Assembly (NCBI GenBank): GCA_951799425.1 | Contig: OX637393.1 | Span: 26,306,744-26,370,743, forward strand | DNA from: Ilex aquifolium | Taxonomy: Eukaryota; Streptophyta; Magnoliopsida; Aquifoliales; Aquifoliaceae | Length of the DNA: 64,000 nucleotides | Direction: 5' to 3' | Part shown: in pieces, positions 46,453 through 59,306 of the stretch | How positions within the stretch are numbered: the stretch's first letter is position 1 | Layout of the letters: each line of letters opens with the position of its first letter | The notes under the pieces: generated by a model | Databases searched by the model: none | What the model was told of the DNA's origin: nothing | Seen by the model: the letters and a program-made list of their open reading frames with translations, nothing else | Translations under genes and position numbers: made by a program

Positions 46453-49400
46453 TTATCTGCGAAAGTGAATATTTACAACAGATGGCTGCATAAATAAAGT
46501 CTGCTGGACGGAGAGTGCGAGGGGTAAAAATGGATGGAAGTGAAACGAAGAGATTTTCTTTGTCCGAGTATCTGTGCTGCCACCTTCTGGTCCTAATGAA
46601 ATTGCCAGGCCACCGTGAACAGCCAGTTAGTTCAAAACTCATAAAGGTCAGTTGAGAGGCAAAAAAGCATCCCAAATGACAAAAATAAAAAATTGGGTAA
46701 ATAAACGAAATTTTTATTGATTTGCAATGAGGTTCTTACACTAAAAAGGGGAACACTAGAAAACCCCTTCAAAAAAAAAACATACAGCCTAAACTGAATG
46801 CTCTATATCCACATCAAAGTAATCCTTGTACATGTTCCCAAAATAACAAGTTGAAGCTCATAAAGAATGGCAAATGGAAATAAAAACAGAAATATGACCA
46901 TAATGATTCAACAGATCTGAAACTCGTCATTCCTACCCTCTTATTGCCAGCTAGAGATATCTAGGCCTCTTACAACACCCAACTAATCCTCCTGGACACA
47001 TGCGGTCCTTTCATTCTAGATTCACTGGATAAATACCGGGTAAAACCCTAGGAGGAGGTTTCCAACTTCCGCTTGCCTACTCACTTTGCCATACCACCAA
47101 GGATCAAAATTTCGTTTCGGTGCATTATTTTGGTCACCTAGAAAATAGAAACGTTTCGACATGTTTCAGAAACGTTTCGACCCGTTTCGAAAACAGAATA
47201 AAAAATAATAAAAATTTAAGAATTATTTTTTCAAAACATTGGTCGAAATATATCAAAAAATCTTGAAATACCTTGAAATATTCCGAAATAATTGTGCAAA
47301 TGTATTGAAATATAACAAAATATTTCGAAACATTATGAAACACCTCGAAATATTAGAATTTCGATTCCATCACTGATTCGTTCCAGTCTCATTGGAAACG
47401 AAAACGTTTCGGATGTTTCGAAACGATATTTTGATCCTTGCATACCACGATAAAAAACTAAAACTACTGGAAGTATCGTCCACTAGCATTCATTTAAAAA
47501 ACTGCAGTGTCCAGCTATGTACCTGGTTTAATCTTGAATTTGAGGACATTCAGTTGCCTTGAAATGAACTTGATGGGATGGTCGGTGGACTGTCTGTGTC
47601 GGTCAGTTGCAGAAATCAGCTGTAATAGCAGGTGGGTTATTAATGTCAAAACCCAAGAGAAGGGTTTCAAATGCCATGAAGGCACAAACAACAGATTAGA
47701 CCCATAAACAACATTTAGCGCAGTATAGAGGGAGAGAGATGTAAAAAGAAGCCAACTAGTCAACTGAAAAAAGTAAATGCAAAACAATAACAAGTGACTG
47801 AAGTTCAAAGGACAAAAATGGAATATAGTAGCAGTTGCAATAAAGGAAAAAATCGTAAATGACAAAAAGCTATACAATGAACACATGGTACAAACAGCAA
47901 GAATGATAACACTGACACAAGTGATGAGACTCTCTAGGAGAGATTTAACAGGGTATCTATTGGATGATACATCCAGACTTTCACAACAAGCTTCCTTCAC
48001 TACAACAAACAAAAGGAAAGAGAATCCCTATGTTATATACAGACAGATAGACAGGCAGACATAAAAACACGCACGTGTATATACAAGCATCTACGTGCGA
48101 GTTATGCAGTCAAAGAAAAAAGGGAAATGCTATTTGGACTTAAAATGTGAACTTAAAATATGTACTTGATAATCACGAATAGGTAGTTGGTCCCAATGAA
48201 TGCTAAGACCTATAGTAAAATCAATGGTTGTGATTGTCAAGTACACTTTTTAAGTCCATGTAACATTGCTCAAGAAAAAATGGCAATGAAGCATTCTTCT
48301 AGACTTCAAAGCATAAAGAATCCGAATGACAGAAATTGTACACGCACACAAGAAACTTTCTGGTGATTCAACTGCTGCCAAAATAGTGACATCAATGTAA
48401 TTTTCAGGAATCCTTAAGTAGCCCAATCTGGGGAGCATGTAACCATACCTCTATTCTAAACTCATACACACATATATTACCAAAGGAAGAAGATGGTAAC
48501 AGAAGGGCACCATTAACGTGCCAGTACAACAAACTAGAAGCTCCTAAACCTTCCTAGTAAGAGAATTAGAACATTATTTGTGATAAACATTAATAATGCA
48601 AAAGAAAGACCAAATCTCAGAATCATACCTTTTCATCAAATCGAAAAAGAGATTGATCAAAATAGGGGGAAGGACTCTGCGACTGGCAACTAAAAGGCAA
48701 AGAGGCCAGCATCTTCTTCACAAACTGCATAACGCAGAAGACCACTATAAAAGGTGTCATGCTATAAAGCTATTCTATTGCATGCCTGAAAAGCCAAAGC
48801 CTCACATAGTCCTATCAACATACTTTCAACAGAAGATATTCTTCAAGACCATACAGTGGGGAAAAGGTAGAAGACTTAAAGAAAACAAATTCGACAATGA
48901 GATATTACCTGGGAAAAGCTGCTGGCTTTGTTTTTATTGCACCTTAGTTGCTCAAGAGCATGAATATTATTTGAGTGAGATGATATAAAGTTCATGTGCA
49001 ATGAATTTTTTGATATTGCATGAAAGTGGTCGCAGAACTGTTCAAACAAGAAGTAAAGCTCATCTGGCGAATTCTACAGGACATCAGGAAGGAATGTCAA
49101 GTGCCTGTCACACAGAACATTCAAGTTCCAATAGCAAACATAAAAAAATAGGATTGAGTGCCAAAAGATACCTGATAAAAAGCAATAATCTCAGTTGTCT
49201 CCATGTTATATACAGCAAAGAATGCAGGATGGTTATCAGCATTTCGTGATACCTGCAGCTTCAAAAACAAGTTTCTAAAACAAAGCACAAAGCTTCCCCC
49301 GGTCTGATAATTTAAAGAGCAAGACTCCAAAATTTAAGAGGATATCAAACACCAGACAATTATAAAGCTGGCCTTTCATTTGGTTTGGGACTTACCCTCG

Positions 49401-52400
49401 AAAGCCTCAGAACAACTACACATTACAACTAGACCAATACACTTTAAGAGCAAGTCTATTAATTTTGAAGGATACATAGACCCACCTCCTTTATTGGTAA
49501 ACAAGATGCAATTGAAGGGTGTGGCAGGTCCAAATAAGCCTCTTGTTTTGCTTTCTAAGATTTGATGGAGCCCATATAATGGTTTATTTGTGATCTATGA
49601 CTACCATCAAAGGAGCTCAGTACAATCTCATTAACAAAGAGAAATTTATCAACTTTGTCCATTGAAAAATCTATGGTTTATGAGTCTTGCATGCAACTTT
49701 CACAACCTTTTTTTTTCCCGACTTCCTGGACCGATAACGTTTCAAGACTCATCTCTGAGACCATTTTTAGGAATTTAAATCAGATTTCTTCAACAAAACA
49801 ATCTCATGATGATAATTGAAACAAAATTAGAGTAGGAAACTTTAAGCAAAAATCAGTTCTTGTGACCGGTAATAAGATAGAATGGCTTCAATCTAAAGAT
49901 AAAAATAGCCAATAATGAGATTAAAAAGAACTCCCAGTATTACTATTACCACAATGGCTGATGGCGCCATATCAGATAGGTTTAAGTTTAAATGAGTAAG
50001 AGGCATTTTCAGAATATGCGGATCGTGGGTAAATCTTTGAGAAATTAACGACAGATTTCTCTGATATAACTAGAGAAGCTCAAGGACACTGACACATATG
50101 TTGCCAACACATGCATATACTCAACTGAACTGAACAACATTTTATGGGGCATATATAGACACTAAATCACAGAAATTTAAGCTGCGGTTACACCATAGTA
50201 TTCCAATTTTTACCAAATTTCAGCCTTAACTCCAATCATTATAGATTTATATTCACCATAGCGGTAGGCAGGGAGCAGGGAGACCTGGAGTAGATGTGTA
50301 TCCCAGATATTTCTTGGAGCTAGTTCTGCTCATCAAAAAAATTAAAAAGGAAGAAAAGAAGGCTCCAAAGTTTAATTTTATCTAATTATCTTAACTGAAA
50401 AATAAATTAAAATGACAACAAACTAAACAGCCAAAAACAAAATCCGATGATGAATAAATAAATAGAAGGGAAAAAAGTAAGATGACAGAACGGCAGGAAT
50501 AAGAACTCACCCCTCCATCAACACTACCAAACTTGATCAGTAGGTGACGACGGTCCAAGAACTGTACCTGTCCAAAATATATTGAATAATTTGTTACACC
50601 ATACTCAATGAGGAAAACAGGTTTTACCAATATGGTAAATCTAGGAGAAAATAAGCTGTGATGCAGCAGGCACAAAGTCAGTAGGGCAGACAACATTGAA
50701 AGTTCGAACCCTACCTTCCAGATAATTAAATCAACATAATCTTGGAAATGGAAGAAAAACTTCTTCTTCAGGCACTGGATTCTCTGATCCAACAAGAAAA
50801 CAGAGCAATTAAAAGGAATTTCTTGAAACCAAATCACCCTTGAATACTAAGAAAGATCAAAATTCACAAAATTTGATCAAAGCATAGCTACTGAGTGTTG
50901 AAAAGCATAGTAATCCACAACTTGTGATTAGGACAAAAATTAACTTTCAGAAAAAAAAGGAAATGAAAGCCACTGCCAAACAATATAGAAAATTACAACT
51001 CATCTATTTCTTGCTGTTAAACACTAATCAACTCCGAAGATAAAGTGAGGCTTGGGATTATTTTGAATTGCTACCTTGCCTTGATTGAATGAGAATAGAT
51101 AAGGCACAAGTGGGATTCGGTGCAGTGATGGCTATACTTCTAGTAACAAACTCTAGGTGAATACAGAGCTTGCTGATACAAGTTAGGACAAGCTCTAAAA
51201 CATGCTAACAGCTCATCTTAACCACAACAGATGAACAAGATAAACATAATCTCAATCAGCTAGCGTCCGTTGAACACCTTTTCTGTGCCATGCTATAGTG
51301 GCCAAAGCCAAGTGACATGTAATGTAACTCAAACCTGCTTTAAAGTTTAAAGTATCATCACTTGCATTCCACTTCATAATAAAAATGAGGTGCTGAGAGA
51401 AGAGGAGGAAGATGGGGGACCTCACTTAGAGGGGATCATGGATAACCAAAGAAAATTACAGGAAAGAATTAGCCATCAATGATGATTAATGATCAATAAA
51501 TTTTTTTGCATGGAATATTCTAGGTCTAGTCGCGTATTAAACCCTAAAATATCTTAATGACACAGGCAGACTACAGCTTCAACTTCTTGATCATGGAAGT
51601 TTCTAAGAAAGCAAGGAAACCATTTTTAGGAGTGAAGGGATGGCATATGGCAAGACGCTTTGATTTACAAGTTAATAGGCTGCTCAAGGCATTTTAGGCA
51701 AGATTGCAACATATGGCCTAGGGAGGGAACCATGGCTTCTTTTTACAACATCACGTCATTTGCTATGAGCCCCTGGGAGTCTGTCGAAAATATTGATAAT
51801 GGCCAAAGGTCTCGAATTCTATTCATTAATAGACGTGGTTTATACTTAGCTACTGGTGGTTAGCGGTCAGAGCCGGACTGTGGTATGAAGCAAGCCATTT
51901 AATGGAAACTTGGGAGCAATACACGAGCATCCAAAGGAGTGTTTGCAAGCCTAGATAACTACTAGTAATCTCCCTTCCGTTTACACTTCAATCAAAGGCC
52001 ATAGAGATGTTGACACCACATAATCCAAGCCACAACACTTGGATGTAGATTGCCCTCCTAGATGTAATACATGATAAATCTGCAGCATTTTTTGGATATT
52101 GAGCAATTAAGCAATCGATGTATTACTTAACAAACAAGGAAATAAGACTATAAGAACAATCGAAGTACTGACCACCTAAAATATTTTTGTGTTGCCATGC
52201 TCCTGAGATTGTGTAGGAGCATGGACTCCTCAGGAACGTCTCCTACAAGTTGAGTATCATACCTCAATGCACAACCTTTCAAGCTTAAGAAAATCACGTT
52301 AATAAGAAAAAAATTGTTAAAGTTGTCCAGAGGTATTGGAGAAAAGGTCTCTATCTATATTTCCTGTCAAAATGGTGTTGGATAACCCAGAAAAAGGGGT

Positions 52401-55400
52401 TAGAAACTCATGAAGGGCAATAAGAGCAGGAGACATCAATCTCATCGTCCAAATCTTATAGAGGCTTCTATTGCCAAAAATTAAAATGACACACATAACA
52501 TAACTCCTATTGTCAAACCGAACTGTTTGCATGAATATTTCTTCATTATTTTAACTTTACAGAGAACTAATAAGTTATTCTTCATCCCTTTTGACATGTC
52601 AATGCTGACACTGACAAATTGATCTCGGCAAGATCCTTAATTTCTGGTACAAGTACCTTTCACGTAAGCATTCAGTCTCTTTTCCACACAGGAAATCAAT
52701 CCAATCATATGGTTGATGCGAGTTAAAAACTAGCTAACTAGTCGGAAAATGGGTGGTGTTTCCATTTGGTGAAAAAATTTCCCTTATTCAATCAACTTTG
52801 GAAAATACTTTCACCAGGGGTATAAGCAGGCCTAAGAAATAGGCATTTAGTCATATCTATGCCCGAGTCTGATTACTAAAGCACTGAAAGTTGTATGCTT
52901 CATCTCCACATGATTTTAAATCCTACAGTTTTGAAAATCTAAATCATTGAAATCATATAATATGCCCATAATTTAGCTCTAATTTAACAAACTGATGGGA
53001 ATCGTGTAGGAATTGGATAGATATTATAGATTAATTATGATAGTTATTTAGATACTTTTAGTATTTATTTTTTAAATAATTTCTTTTACCTTTTAAGGGT
53101 TTAGTAGTCATTTTGATTATTTATTTATTTTAGGGTTTGTGATCTCCTTATATATATAGGATTTGTGAACTCCTATATATATAGGGGATACATATTTGTT
53201 GTAGGAGATTTTTTATTATTATTGATTATTGATATTAAATCTTTCTTCCTCAAATTCTCCTTTTGTTCTCATCTCCTTCTTCTTCTTTTCTTATCTCCTT
53301 CTTCTTCCCTTCTCATCCCTAATTCTTCCTTACTACGATCTACATCAATTTGGTATCAGAGCCCAATTTCGATTCATACAAATCACAAAAAAAAAAAATT
53401 ACTGTTCATCGACGACACTGTTCACTGTTCAGTAAAAAAAAATAAAAAAATTTTGAAGCAGTATTGCCGCGAAGAAGACGATCAGATCAGGAAGGGTCTT
53501 GTTTGGGAACAATAGCTTCACGTGGGGAAGAAGATGTACTGCCAGAAATTCTAAAATTGCATAAACATCCCCAGTAAAACCAGAAACTTACAGAATCACC
53601 CCCATAAGTTACAACAAATTGCAAAAATATCATCTAGAAGCTCCAGAATTGCAGAAACATCCCCAACAGATCCAAAAAATTGCAGAATCACTCCCAAAAA
53701 TTCCAAAAAATTACAGAAGTATCACTCCAAAAGTTTCAAAAATTAAAGAATAATCCTCAAAAAATTTCAGAATTTTCTCTTGATTATGGTATGCATACTC
53801 CCATAGAATTTGAGACTAATATTTTTATTCATTTGGAAATTAGAGAATTTGCAAAGGGTCCAAAACACATTTTCTTCTATGTAAACTTTCTTGAAATTAT
53901 CAATTGCATTCTTGAATTTGTTCTTATACCATTCTCATCTCTCAAGAGTCGCTCATGAGTTCCTCTAATGCACATGTTTCAAGAGTCTCTCGTCGAGGTC
54001 ATCATCATAGGAAGTGTAGGGATGTTTACATGGAGTCAACCCATATGACCAAACCAGTCAAAGATCCTTCTATATTTAGTGGGACTTTAGATCCTTTTGA
54101 ATTCTTAGATTGGTTAGCTAATTTAGAAGAATATTTTGATTGGCATGTCGGATTCCCATTGCGTCCGGTTTGCTAAATTAATGTTGGAGGGTTCCGCCAA
54201 GCAGTATTAGCAAACAATCCAAAGAAGCTTAGACCCCTTTGGAGAATCACTTATTACTTGGGTTGAAATGAGATATAAATTGAAAGAGAAGTATTTGTCT
54301 ACTTCCTACATGGATCAAGTTTATGACCAATGGCTCAATCTTAGACAACATTCTTCTAGTGTCTCTGATTACTTTGTCCAGTTCGATTATCTCATGTACT
54401 TGTGTGACATTGTTGAAGAACCTTGGACAATTGATCAGTTTATTCTTGGATTGAGACAAAAAATTAGTAGGGAGGTCAAGCAATATACTTTTAATACGTT
54501 AGTTGCAGCCTATCAATATGCTCTAAAGGTTAAGAGGTTTCATAAGAAATCCAACTATAGCTTGATGGGTTCTCTATCACAGTCTGCTAAACAGCGTGAA
54601 ATGATACTTTCCAATTTTAATTCCACCACATATGAGCATCATGATTACTTGAACGATGTCCATGTTGTTTCTGCATGCTTTCCTAATCTGAATGTAGCAA
54701 AAGATTTAGATATGCTAGTATCAGATAAAAAGAAAAATGTTACTCATATTAACTTCCAACTCCCTCATTCAATTTCATCAGATCAGAGTCCTCCTCCTTT
54801 GTACCCACAATAGTTCACATCAAAAGAAAGTGTATGTGAGTCTTTACTTCTGTCAATTCTTGAACCATCATTGGTCTTGAAAATTGTGGAAAAATCTGTT
54901 GAGTCTACATCTATGCAAGATATTAAGCCAATCGAGTCATTTATTGTAGAATCTACTAGTGACTATTCCGTGTCTACTTGTCCAAGTCATCATGACTTTG
55001 TTACGGATTTTTTTCAATCTAAGATTGTTGACTTTATTCCTCTACCTATTGCCAATCTAAGATTGTTGAAGTCTTGTCCCACTGAATGCTTGTTGTTCAA
55101 GTCTGATGGGAATTATTTTTTTATTCTTGAATTTGGATCTAATGCTTATTTGCTTAATTTTTTATTGAATGTTAGTATTAGTCCAGATTTTTATTTGGAG
55201 GACATACTACTTAATCGAGGTACTCCAAAACCTCCTATTTTGTTATCTAGTGTTTCTACAGGTGGAATTGCTTCTTCTTCAACACAAGCTCCAGTTCTTA
55301 TCTTTCCACTTCCATCACATATGTCGGGCCAAATAGATGATGTGCTACGGGGACCAGATTTACATTACTACAGATGGAGATTCTTGCATTTATTCTGGTC

Positions 55401-58400
55401 GATGAAAAAATGTTGATGGTTCTTTCATTCTAGATGAGGCGTTCTATCATCTTCATGCTGCTTTCTTAGGGTACTTCTGTTTTGAAGACTCTCCGAATGA
55501 GAGTTTTTTTTCAACCGGAGGAGAATGATGGGGATCGTGTAGGAATTGGATAGATATTATACATTAATTATGATAGTTATTTAGATACTTTTAGTATTTA
55601 TCTTTTAAGTAATCTCTTTTACCTTTTAAGGGTTTAGTTGTTATTTTGATTATTTATTTATTTTAGGGTTTGTGATCTCCTTATATATATAGGATTTGTG
55701 AACTCCTATATATATAGGAGATTCCTATATATATAGGAGATACATATTTGTTGTAGGAGACTTTTGATTATTATTATTGATATTGAATCCTTCTTGCTCA
55801 AATTCTCTCTCTATTCTCATCCCCTTCTTCCCTTCTCATCCTTAATTCTTCTAATACGATCTACATCAATTTGATATCAGAACTAATACGATCTACATCA
55901 ATTTGGTATCAGAGATAATACTAACATTCAATGAAAAATTAAGCAAATAAGCATTAGATCCAAATTCAAGAATATAAAAACAATTTCCATCAGACTTGAA
56001 CAACAAGCATTCAGTGGGACAAGACTTCAACAATCTTAGATTGGCAATAGGCTGAGGAATATAGTCAAAAATCTTAGATTGGAAAAAATATGTAACAAAG
56101 TCATGATGACTTGGACAAGTAGACACAGAATAGTCACTAGTAGATTCTACAATAAATGACTCGATTAGCTTAATATCTTGCATAGGTGTAGACTCAACAA
56201 ATTTTTCCACAATTTCCAATACCAATGATGGTTCAAGAATTGACAGAAACAAAGACTCACAAACACTTTCTTTTGATATGAACTCTTGTGGGTACAAAGG
56301 AGGAGGACTCTGATCTGATGAAATTGAATGAGGGAGTTGGAAGTCAATATGAGTAACATTTTTCTTTTTATCCGATACTAGCATATCTAAATCCTTTGCT
56401 ACATTCGGATTAGGAAAGCATGCAGAAACAACATGGATATCGTTCAAGTAATCATGATACTCATATGTGGTGGAATTAAAATTGGAAGGTATCCTTTCAC
56501 GCTGTTTAGCAGACTGTGATAGAGAACCCATCAAGCTATAGTTGGATTTCTTATGAAACCTCTAAACCTTTAGAGCATATTGATAGGCTGCAACTCACGT
56601 ATTAAAAGTATATCGTTTGACCTCCCTACTAATTTTTTGTCTCAATCCAAGAATAAACTGATCAATTGTCCAAGGTTCTTCAACAATGTCACACAAGTAC
56701 ATGAGATAATCGAACTGGACAAAGTAATCAGAGACACTAGAAGAATGTTGTCTAAGATTGAGCCATTGGTCATAAACTTTATCCATGTAGGAAGTAGACA
56801 AATACTTCTCTTTCAATTTATAACTCATTTCAACCCAAGTAATAAATGATTCTCCAAAAGGGTCTAAGCTTCTTTGGATTGTTTGTCAATACTTCTTGGC
56901 GGAACCCTCCAACATTAATTTAGCAAACCGGACACAATGGGAATCCGACATGCCATGCCAATCAAAATATTCTTCTAAATTAGCTAACCAATCCAAGAAT
57001 TCAAAAGGATCTAAAGTCCCACTAAATATAGAAGGATCTTTGACTCGTTTGGTCATATGGGTTGACTCCATGTAAACATCCCTACACTTCCTATGATGAT
57101 GACCTCGACGAGAGACTCTTGAAACATGTGCATTAGAGGAACTCATGAGTGACTCTTGAGAGATGAGAATGGTATAAGAACAAATTCTTGATAATTTCAA
57201 GAAAGTTTAAATAGAAGAAAATGTGTTTTGGACCCTTTACATATTCTCTAATTTCCCAATGAATAAAAATATTAGTCTCAAAATCTATGGGAGTATGCAT
57301 ACCATAATCAAGAGAAAATTCTGAAATTTTTTGGGGATGATTTTGTAATTTCTGAAATTTTTGGAGTGATACTTCTGTAATTTTCTGGATCTGTTGGGGA
57401 TGTTTCTGCAATTCTGGAACTTCTGGATGGTATTTCTGCAATTTGTTATGGGGGTGATTCTGTAAGTTTCTGGTTTTACTGGAGATGTTTCTGCAATTTT
57501 AGAATTTCTTGCAGTAGATCTTCTTCCCCACGTGAAGCTATTGTTCCCAAACAAAACCCTTCCTGATCTGATCGTCTTCTTCGCAGCAATATTGCTTAAA
57601 TTTTATTTTTTTTACTGGTTCTATTGGAACGAAACCAGAACAGCGACGAACATTGGAGGCCAAAAACATTGCGCACAATGAACAGGTTTTTTTTTTCCTG
57701 CTGCACAGCCCTTTGATTTCTGTTTTTTTTTTTTAACTGGACAGCGCGATGAACTGTACCCCCGATGTACAGTGCCGGTGAACAATACTCCTGTGAACAG
57801 TGCCGATGAACAGTGTTGATGTATTTTTTTTTTTTTTTTGTAAGAATCGAAATTGGGCTCTGATACCAAATTGATGTAGATCATATTAGCTCTGATACCA
57901 AATTGATGTAGATCGTAGTAAGGAAGAATTAGGGATGAGAAGGGAAGAAGAAGGAAATGAGAAAAGAAGAAGATGGGGATGAGAACAGAGGGAGAATTTG
58001 AAGAAGAAGGATTTAATATCAATAATCAATAATAATCAAAAGTCTCCTACAACAAATATGTATCCCCTATATATATACAAGAGATCACAAATCCTATATA
58101 TATAAGGAGATCACAAACCCTAAAAAGGTAAAAGAAATTATTTAAAAGATAAATATTAAAAGTATTTAAATAACTATCATAATTAATCTATAATATCTAT
58201 CTAATTCCTACACGATTCCCATCACATACTAAACAACGGTAGTCCGTATAATTACAGATGAGTTGTATATATACAAATCTATAAATAACCTGTTTTCCAT
58301 GAACTCGAAGCTAAGTGGTAGGACTGATTGCTGTGGAAAAATGTGATTTGATTACAAGCAACACTATATCATATCTAGAAATGGATTGAACTTATCAATT

Positions 58401-59166
58401 AGAATTTGGATCACAATGCCAATTGACCAAGAAATTTCAAGCCATACAACTATATTTAATTATTTTACACTAGCTTAATATTGCAGACAAAACAAGCTGA
58501 AAAAAAGTTCTCAAGAAACCATACAAAGAGGAGGTAAAGAAGCCAGACAGACAACAGATTCTGAAGCTTTACACTGACATCCATTCACGTTAACATGCAA
58601 AGCTAAAATGAGAAAGATGATATCCATGGAGCAACTGAAAATGAAGCAGACATAACTGATAAGTAGAAACTAAGCCTTAAAATTGCCTGCAATCAGTTTA
58701 AAAGAAAGCTAGCTACAGAAACTTGTTTACAGAAGTCAGCAGATCATCCAAAACCTGTGATACAAGTAAGAAACTACAATAAACCTCTAATTATCCCAAA
58801 CAGCATAGATGACATGTGAAGATCCAAATTTTAAACCTTATGTGAAGACAACATGTCTTTTTTCTGGTAGAATATTTTGCCATAGAAGAATGGGTTATGT
58901 GAACTACATAAACAATGAGGTCATAATAAATGAAGAAAAAAATATTTCTGAGACTCTGAAAGTAACATGAACATAATATTCACATGACCAACCGGGGTTT
59001 GATCAGTTTCTTCATTCCATATCCCTCGATATATGAATGAAAGCAAGCGCTGTTTTATACCACTCAGGAATGAATTGAATGGAATAGGCGAGTTATGATG
59101 CTGACCGTTCCCAACATGATCCAGGGGCACCTGATGCAGCTTACTCTGGTCAGGAATCGACAAATA
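46453..59166 (-). CDS. DET1: DET1 (De-etiolated 1), C-terminal eight exons (partial)
   Basis: Minus-strand exons 59166-58993, 50783-50715, 50567-50511, 49252-49172, 49073-48909, 48724-48629, 47619-47523 and 46592-46453 (TAA 46455-46453). All GT-AG; phases 0 except phase 1 at the last junction; 292 residues with no stop. Recognised pieces: FLSGIKQRLLSFIYRGIWNE, CLKKKFFFHFQDYVDLIIWK, LLIKFGSVDGG, NADNHPAFFAVYNMETTEII, SPDELYFLFEQFCDHFHA, SATDRHRQSTDHPIKFISR and QPSVVNIHFRR at the C-terminus. Known role: nuclear repressor of light responses that works with COP10 and DDB1 on CUL4 ubiquitin ligases. Plant DET1 is about 540 residues, so roughly the N-terminal 250 are encoded beyond 64000. The first intron seen here, 8.2 kb, holds a palindromic retroelement; exons are undamaged. 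Confidence 0.96.
47098..47440. mobile_element. hAT-type MITE in the last DET1 intron
   Basis: Ends CAAGGATCAAAAT and ATTTTGATCCTTG, with an exact 8-base duplication CATACCAC at 47090-47097 and 47441-47448. The 8-bp TSD and CA...TG-type TIR are hAT hallmarks. The interior is rich in GAAACGTTTCGA palindromes; 343 bases, no ORF. Confidence 0.9.
48120..48262. mobile_element. Small foldback/MITE in a DET1 intron
   Basis: Left ATTTGGACTTAAAATGTG...TACTTGATAATCA matches, in reverse complement, ACATGGACTTAAAAAGTGTACTTGACAATCA on the right (split here only for reading). About 140 bases overall. TSD not identified. Confidence 0.6.
52993..53347 (+). repeat. Left LTR of the palindromic element
   Basis: Begins TGATGGGAATCGTGTAGG and ends ATCTACATCA. 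TATATATA at about 53174-53183 is the likely TATA region, followed by a CT-rich R/U5. Three bases later comes TGGTATCAGAGC (53351-53362), a perfect initiator-Met PBS. Confidence 0.9.
53351..53362 (+). other. Primer binding site (initiator Met tRNA)
   Basis: TGGTATCAGAGC, perfect 12-base match to the usual plant LTR-element PBS. Confidence 0.88.
53545..53790. repeat. Degenerate ~28-bp repeats in the leader of copy A
   Basis: Units of the form CCAGAAATTGCAGAAACATC with variation recur about eight times between the PBS and gag. The mirror set lies in copy B at about 57290-57510. Confidence 0.75.
53955..55522 (+). pseudogene. gag: gag-like gene, copy A
   Basis: Starts MSSSNAHVSRVSRRGHHHR, with DPSIFSGTLDPFEFLDWLAN. 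The retrotransposon gag domain follows (MRYKLKEKYLSTSYMDQVYD, SDYFVQFDYLMYLC, FILGLRQKI). The C-terminal half is of unknown type (SDYSVSTCPSHHDFVTDFF, SCPTECLLFKSDGN). Damage: a 5-base loss relative to copy B (one GGCAT of two) near 54145 shifts the frame, TAG at 54208, TAG at 54811, and later stops near 55410. No enzymatic domain occurs before the polypurine-like ACCGGAGGAGAA at 55514. Confidence 0.8.
55526..55900 (+). repeat. Central LTR of the palindromic element
   Basis: TGATGGGGATCGTGTAGG...ATCTACATCA (end 55868), then a tandem copy of the LTR-end/PBS unit (AATACGATCTACATCA plus PBS-like sequence) to 55900. Preceded by a purine tract, so it is the regular 3' LTR of copy A. Confidence 0.85.
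55915..57146 (-). pseudogene. gag: gag-like gene, copy B (inverted, truncated)
   Basis: Minus strand, start at 57146 with the same MSSSNAHVSRVSRRGHHHR. It keeps both GGCAT units and therefore the frame past YFDWHGMSDSH. Stops: TGA at 56888-56886 (homologous codon to the TAG of copy A) and a TGA near 56597. It runs to the LNFSLNVSII region and then stops abruptly at the PBS junction 55914/55915. The last 345 internal bases of copy A (55181-55525) and a 3' LTR of its own are missing. Confidence 0.8.
57904..58224 (-). repeat. Right (inverted) LTR of the palindromic element
   Basis: Minus strand TGATGGGAATCG from 58224 to ATCTACATCA at 57904, followed by a doubled LTR-end/PBS unit (CTCTGATACCAAATTGATGT twice at about 57859 and 57890). 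The same doubling occurs at the central LTR but not at the left LTR. Confidence 0.85.
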
Positions 59167-59306
59167 CTGCAATCAATAGTCAATTTGTAAGTCCAGCGAC
59201 TCATACTTATACAGGAGATAAGTGTACAAGTTAAACAGATGAGCTGACAAAAGTATACATAGTCATTAGAGCCATTGATTTTGTGCTTTTATGTAGAAGG
59301 CTCAAT

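Follow-up and report, generated by a model that had tools for sequence, protein, structure and literature searches.

A tail-to-tail dimer of a gag-bearing LTR element in Ilex aquifolium, bounded by two U3 termini and probably inserted in a single event

Introduction

Elements with long terminal repeats (LTRs) are taken to insert with one end from the unique 3' region (U3) of the LTR and the other from its unique 5' region (U5). A stretch of 64,000 nucleotides of the Ilex aquifolium genome (C3:26306744-26370743 of the 800-Mb assembly; hereafter the window) departs from this pattern. Here a 2.6-kb gag-bearing LTR element is present twice at 52993-58224, tail to tail, and the canonical pairing of U3 and U5 outer ends fails, with U3 standing on both borders. 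The dimer very probably records one integration through two U3 ends, a claim common to the two mechanisms that have to be weighed most closely, namely the end joining of two complementary DNAs (cDNAs) and copy-back during reverse transcription. Joining of two cDNAs followed by insertion through the remaining U3 ends is the best explanation at present, and is held with moderate confidence.

Anatomy of the dimer

A first-pass annotation of this DNA had placed the arms, borders and flanks of a near-palindromic element at 52988..58229, and sequence comparison confirmed these positions. Copy A runs LTR1, primer-binding site (PBS), leader, gag, polypurine tract (PPT), LTR2, and the inverted copy B is attached to it at TAATAC. 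The parts are as follows.

52988..52992, plus strand: putative target-site duplication, left copy CAAAC
52993..53347, plus strand: LTR1, the 5' LTR of copy A; its outer border is the U3 terminus TGATGGGAATCG, its other end CTACATCA
53351..53362, plus strand: primer-binding site TGGTATCAGAGC of copy A
53363..55511, plus strand: interior of copy A, with a leader that is highly variable among copies and the gag open reading frame (ORF) at 54211-54810
55512..55525, plus strand: PPT-like CAACCGGAGGAGAA, immediately 5' of LTR2
55526..55921, plus strand: LTR2 of copy A, carrying two whole U5-tip/PBS units in tandem, then a third broken off after ATAATAC
55916..55921, no strand: tail-to-tail junction, a 6-nt overlap TAATAC common to the third U5 unit of LTR2 and copy B's inverted interior
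55916..57857, minus strand: interior of copy B, 3'-truncated, without about 345 nt, the PPT and the 3' LTR
57858..57903, minus strand: PBS/U5-tip unit of copy B, present twice in tandem
57904..58224, minus strand: LTR3, the 5' LTR of copy B; its U3 terminus TGATGGGAATCG is the outer right border
58225..58229, plus strand: putative target-site duplication, right copy CATAC

The element is an LTR retroelement by its TG..CA-ended LTRs and by the PBS and PPT in place, and the ORF at 54211-54810 matches Pfam Retrotrans_gag (E 2.2e-10). The PBS TGGTATCAGAGC is presumably of the initiator-methionine transfer RNA (tRNA) type, and the identical 14 letters of CAACCGGAGGAGAA stand before 15 of 47 other family LTRs, with near variants before others. 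The element had been called gag-only; the gag domain is indeed present, and no pol domain was matched in the two ORFs of the element that were scanned. Stretches of 1040 nt and 234 nt within the inverted arms are complementary at 96% and 99%, respectively. Both outer boundaries had also been described as U3 termini, and TGATGGGAATCG is seen at each. The earlier description of two copies facing each other holds for their opposite orientation and needs correction in its detail, since the copies stand tail to tail, copy B is truncated and LTR2 is cut in its third unit.

That third unit ends about 11 bp before the U5 end of other family 3' LTRs, and 36 bp of LTR1 and LTR2 are absent from LTR3. Tandem U5-tip plus PBS units, from one to four per LTR, are found at the LTR ends of the family, and the two LTRs of an element sometimes carry unequal numbers of them. 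A junction placed exactly at the PBS end was considered and dropped, because family 3' LTRs carry tandem U5-tip/PBS units in which the next unit starts with (C/A)TAATAC or a close variant. With a 131-bp query across the junction, only the dimer locus covered the full length among the 40 matches listed (of 375 candidates, 40 were scored), and the remaining 39, copy A included, start at query base 49 or 57, on the interior side. Among 60 family loci compared, interior pieces on opposite strands occur only in the two entries that fall on the dimer locus.

Flanks and outer LTRs

The flanks CAAAC and CATAC agree at four of five positions, as random pairs of window 5-mers do (at four or better) in 2.1% of 200,000 draws. 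Ten canonical copies of the family serve as a yardstick, with flanks matching 5/5 in seven, 4/5 in two and 0/5 in one (a pair on C12, retained in the tally). A single mismatch at the dimer is thus acceptable, since two of the ten canonical copies also show 4/5. The first-pass annotation had read the flanks as one 5-bp target-site duplication with a mismatch; such likeness is infrequent among random pairs, and the flanks are best called duplication-like.

The LTRs themselves were compared in an alignment of 41, used for trees and state counts after the nine most diverged of 50 had been removed. LTR1 and LTR3 cluster with a support of 85.5 in the Shimodaira-Hasegawa-like approximate likelihood ratio test (SH-aLRT) and 91 in the ultrafast bootstrap (UFBoot), and an exclusive clade of LTR1 and LTR2 is rejected by the approximately unbiased (AU) test (p 0.021). 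Rare states tell the same story: four are common to LTR1 and LTR3, none to LTR1 and LTR2 and none to LTR2 and LTR3, where ten same-element LTR pairs share 0-4 and unrelated pairs share at least four in 3 of 803 cases. One of the four LTR1-LTR3 states occurs in 0 of the 38 other LTRs. Moreover, a two-site haplotype pattern that contains two of the four states, searched in the 800 Mb, is exact only at LTR1 and LTR3, with two further places at one mismatch. Alignment of the arms and the three LTRs, which the annotation had proposed as a check, therefore sets LTR2 apart, groups LTR1 with LTR3 and confirms the inverted arms. Given the shared rare states and the AU rejection of LTR1 with LTR2, the outer pair seems to stem from one reverse transcription, and LTR2 from another template; a single strong-stop DNA may have been the source of both 5' LTRs of the dimer.

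Private changes number 7 in LTR1, 8 in LTR2 and 6 in LTR3, and in gag 19 in A and 23 in B, which suggests similar ages. Between the two copies of gag, 45 of 1267 sites are different (K 0.0365). Just after the PBS, judged by eye and among the output listed, the leader of A resembles that at C3:24931193, and the leader of B those at C16:9683598 and C7:20040168. Because the two leaders hold different family alleles, B is no simple duplicate of A, and copy-back of A onto itself is excluded.

U3-to-U3 inserts and joined cDNAs elsewhere in the genome

U3 termini were counted at 159 + 131 = 290 places, about 100 of which were listed; among those listed at least two facing pairs stand at close spacing besides the dimer, and a DNA search gave two more. 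These loci are given below.

C18:11166807-11166900: U3-U3 insert of 94 bp, flanks ATATG/ATATG, 5/5
C5:30691067-30691153: U3-U3 insert of 87 bp, flanks GATTG/GATTA, 4/5
C19:21587972-21588070: U3-U3 insert of 99 bp, flanks matching 2/5
C13:26886013-26886104: U3 palindrome, left end truncated inside an LTR, excluded from the scoring of flanks

Flanks match at 4/5 or better in three of the four scored U3-U3 inserts, the dimer included, a result (at least three of four random pairs) seen in 6 of 100,000 draws. The C5 insert sits in a repeat with at least 39 further matches listed, which appears hAT-like by reading of its text. At the paralogous empty sites of this insert, 7 of 7 examined copies read TAATGATTRTTTTG, with GATTR once; these sites are proof of a 5-bp duplication around a U3-U3 insert. 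That DNA of this kind is integrated is shown by the smaller U3-to-U3 inserts, one of which has paralogous empty sites.

The shorter arms of the 87-, 94- and 99-bp palindromes all end at U3 nt 36-37 (3/3), and in the 87- and 94-bp palindromes the arms agree over their first 33 nt except at position 8, where the family varies. The LTR at C13:26886013-26886104 has an inverted piece of U3 inside the start of its own U3, such that it opens with a hairpin. The gapped searches were confined to exact U3 tips 33-93 bases apart, which gave two loci, and 94-154 bases apart, which gave none; an exact U5-U5 palindrome pattern of similar size had no genome match, compared with two loci for U3-U3, a small control. 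Termini on opposite strands at C6:12353486/12355715 proved to be two LTRs with interiors pointing apart and no dimer with U3 outer ends. The annotation had also called for a genome search for further inverted dimers with U3-U3 borders: this yielded the short inserts of 87-99 bp and no other large dimer among the loci compared, in a search that was not exhaustive for large inverted dimers.

The same family has also left copies with internal LTR-LTR junctions. C18:15807228-15813240 holds a head-to-tail pair of elements, both of them with gag and two LTRs, with a junction LTR-ATTTAA-LTR and ATGAG on both sides, and at C2:48652126-48655226 an extra LTR follows the 3' LTR (LTR-int-LTR-AA-LTR; junction CATCA-AA-TGATGG) with CTAAC on both sides. 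Since both composites combine internal LTR-LTR junctions with perfect 5-bp duplications, joined cDNAs of the family do integrate. Judging by the bases that separate LTR from PBS and by those that close the PPT, the short spacers at these junctions are probably cDNA ends left unprocessed. In the C18 dimer the junction-side 3' LTR lies 6.9-7.3% from the other three LTRs, which are 3.2-3.9% apart, yet has 2-3 rare states in common with each of the three; it may come from another template, as LTR2 may, or be a gene-converted copy. At C16:7202730-7203330 two LTR copies directly adjoin.

The host gene

The dimer most likely lies inside one intron of DET1 and occupies most of it; where the profile matches end puts the intron length at about 8 kb. 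The ORFs with matches to the Pfam Det1 profile are as follows.

58924..59172, minus strand: host ORF with a DET1 exon match, right of the dimer, profile 137-175, E 1e-5, 25.2 bits (cut-off 25)
50394..50846, minus strand: host ORF with DET1 exon matches, left of the dimer, profile 174-200, E 1.4e-8
47518-48027: a further ORF with a match to profile 336-369

The matches that flank the dimer are on the same strand and adjacent in profile order, and the 688 bp to its left and 701 bp to its right have one genome match each. The DET1 gene spans window positions 47518-59172 on the minus strand, with the dimer as a long inverted repeat in its intron.

Mechanisms and their alternatives

The proposed course of events would begin with a non-autonomous gag-bearing LTR element making at least two cDNAs, A and B. 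The U5 end of cDNA A, trimmed by about 11 bp, would join the incomplete 3' end of cDNA B through the 6-nt microhomology, giving a linear tail-to-tail DNA whose free ends are both U3 termini. Integrase acting in trans would then insert this DNA once into the DET1 intron with a 5-bp target duplication. We infer that joining came before integration and by end joining instead of template switching, that A and B arose together, and that the integrase came from another element, the last because the two scanned ORFs of the element show no integrase.

Copy-back, the main rival, explains the identity of the outer LTRs and the mini palindromes about as well. Here a PPT-started plus strand would switch at TAATAC from the minus strand to the plus-sense strand of a sister cDNA and copy it to its 5' U3 end, which would still amount to one integration via two U3 ends, both being U3 by construction. 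This route accounts for the likeness of LTR1 and LTR3 and the odd LTR2 without extra steps, for the exact U3 terminus at the border of copy B and for the U3 palindromes of 87-99 bp, and would be in keeping with the absence of U5-U5 matches beside two U3-U3 loci, one small control. However, the differing leader alleles of A and B make a sister strand a requirement, the difference at position 8 between the arms of the 87- and 94-bp palindromes suits two source molecules, and the LTR-LTR junctions at C18 and C2 favour end joining in this family. Copy-back is thus a possible origin that we consider on the unlikely side. The annotation's proposal that integrase used two U3 ends of an aberrant cDNA survives as regards the two U3 ends, which are the best reading; as the source of that DNA, end joining is favoured over the reverse transcription that the annotation implied.

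In a further rival, two elements inserted independently and in opposite orientation, and a deletion mediated by microhomology then took away the right duplication of A, the spacer and B's 3' portion. This would suit the 6-nt overlap at the junction and a family with many copies (290 U3 termini counted). Yet the outer flanks should then be unrelated, whereas they match at 4/5; LTR1 should pair with LTR2, a grouping rejected at p 0.021 and without any shared rare state; and one LTR haplotype that is exact nowhere else would have had to land twice within a few kb. We regard this course as improbable. Inverted repeats are known sites of inversions and of assembly fold-back artefacts. A genomic inversion between two elements, or such an artefact, is nevertheless the least probable account: a distant inversion is unlikely because the DET1 exon matches stand in order and on one strand on both sides of the dimer, with flanks that match once each, and an artefact is disfavoured because the arms carry 45 differences over 1267 gag sites. 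Had a three-LTR element in head-to-tail order undergone an internal inversion, LTR3 would lie inside with its U5 side first, which contradicts the anatomy. Two insertions and inversion are therefore both disfavoured by the duplication-like flanks, the haplotype that is exact only at LTR1 and LTR3, the AU rejection and the order of the DET1 matches, all of which favour the annotation's view that the dimer integrated in one event.

Several observations weigh against single integration of joined cDNAs as set out here. The putative duplication carries a mismatch, the flanks of the C19 insert agree at only 2/5, and the empty-site evidence comes from paralogous copies of the repeat around the C5 insert. 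The AU test does not reject a clade of LTR2 with LTR3 or of all three LTRs, and gag trees are indecisive, with A and B grouped in the best tree, yet not significantly. Of the four states common to LTR1 and LTR3, three are G-to-A changes that each recur in 2-3 of the 38 remaining LTRs, and some could be convergent; the distance between LTR1 and LTR3 (K 0.050) exceeds that of ten ordinary LTR pairs (0.021-0.036), and their likeness could have arisen by gene conversion between the arms. Further, LTR2 is unpaired with LTR1, though a normal cDNA has identical LTRs, and this mismatch needs intermolecular plus-strand transfer or later gene conversion.

Relation to known systems and significance

We take the element to belong to the TR-GAG/LARD-like class of gag-only non-autonomous LTR elements, which it resembles in its 2.6-kb length, TG..CA ends, tRNA-Met-type PBS, PPT, gag domain and 5-bp duplications; unlike an ordinary gag-only copy, the dimer would be an aberrant product of such a family. 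Two-LTR junctions occur in unintegrated retroviral DNA as end-to-end joined cDNA. The head-to-tail copy on C18 looks like an integrated junction of this kind, whereas in the dimer a U5 side meets an interior, tail to tail.

LTR complexes with three LTRs, alike outer LTRs and duplications have been described in Triticeae, rice and maize and attributed to template switching that yields a head-to-tail order (Sabot and Schulman, 2007, PMC1950507). The dimer resembles these complexes in its three LTRs, the internal LTR2, the alike outer LTRs and probably in being a composite formed before a single insertion. Their flanking duplications have a putative counterpart in CAAAC/CATAC at 4/5, and their alike outer LTRs one in the support of 85.5/91, though LTR2 with LTR3 is not rejected. 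That model gives two complete cores in head-to-tail order, with ordinary outer ends, unlike the dimer with its tail-to-tail arrangement, one truncated core and two U3 ends. Retroviral integrase can, in vitro, insert two separate viral DNA end molecules together (PMC4422553); that system uses oligonucleotide donors, while the dimer is a long composite in a genome. For a published inverted U3-U3 insertion, a full-text literature search whose coverage left out most subscription journals found no precedent.

With the 5.2-kb dimer and the palindromes of 87, 94 and 99 bp in view, it is tempting to see U3-U3 DNA as a recurrent, integration-competent by-product of the family, a retroelement-born class akin to miniature inverted-repeat transposable elements that a retroelement integrase in need of U3 ends only would move, a generalisation that we offer tentatively and consider doubtful. 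More speculatively, the 5-kb inverted repeat in the DET1 intron could give rise to hairpin RNA, with silencing of the family or an effect on DET1 as possible outcomes. Facing U3 termini are searchable and thus offer a means of counting U3-U3 events, and a genome that keeps U3-U3 inserts with duplications together with head-to-tail joined copies would constitute a natural record of the cDNAs that integrase accepts.

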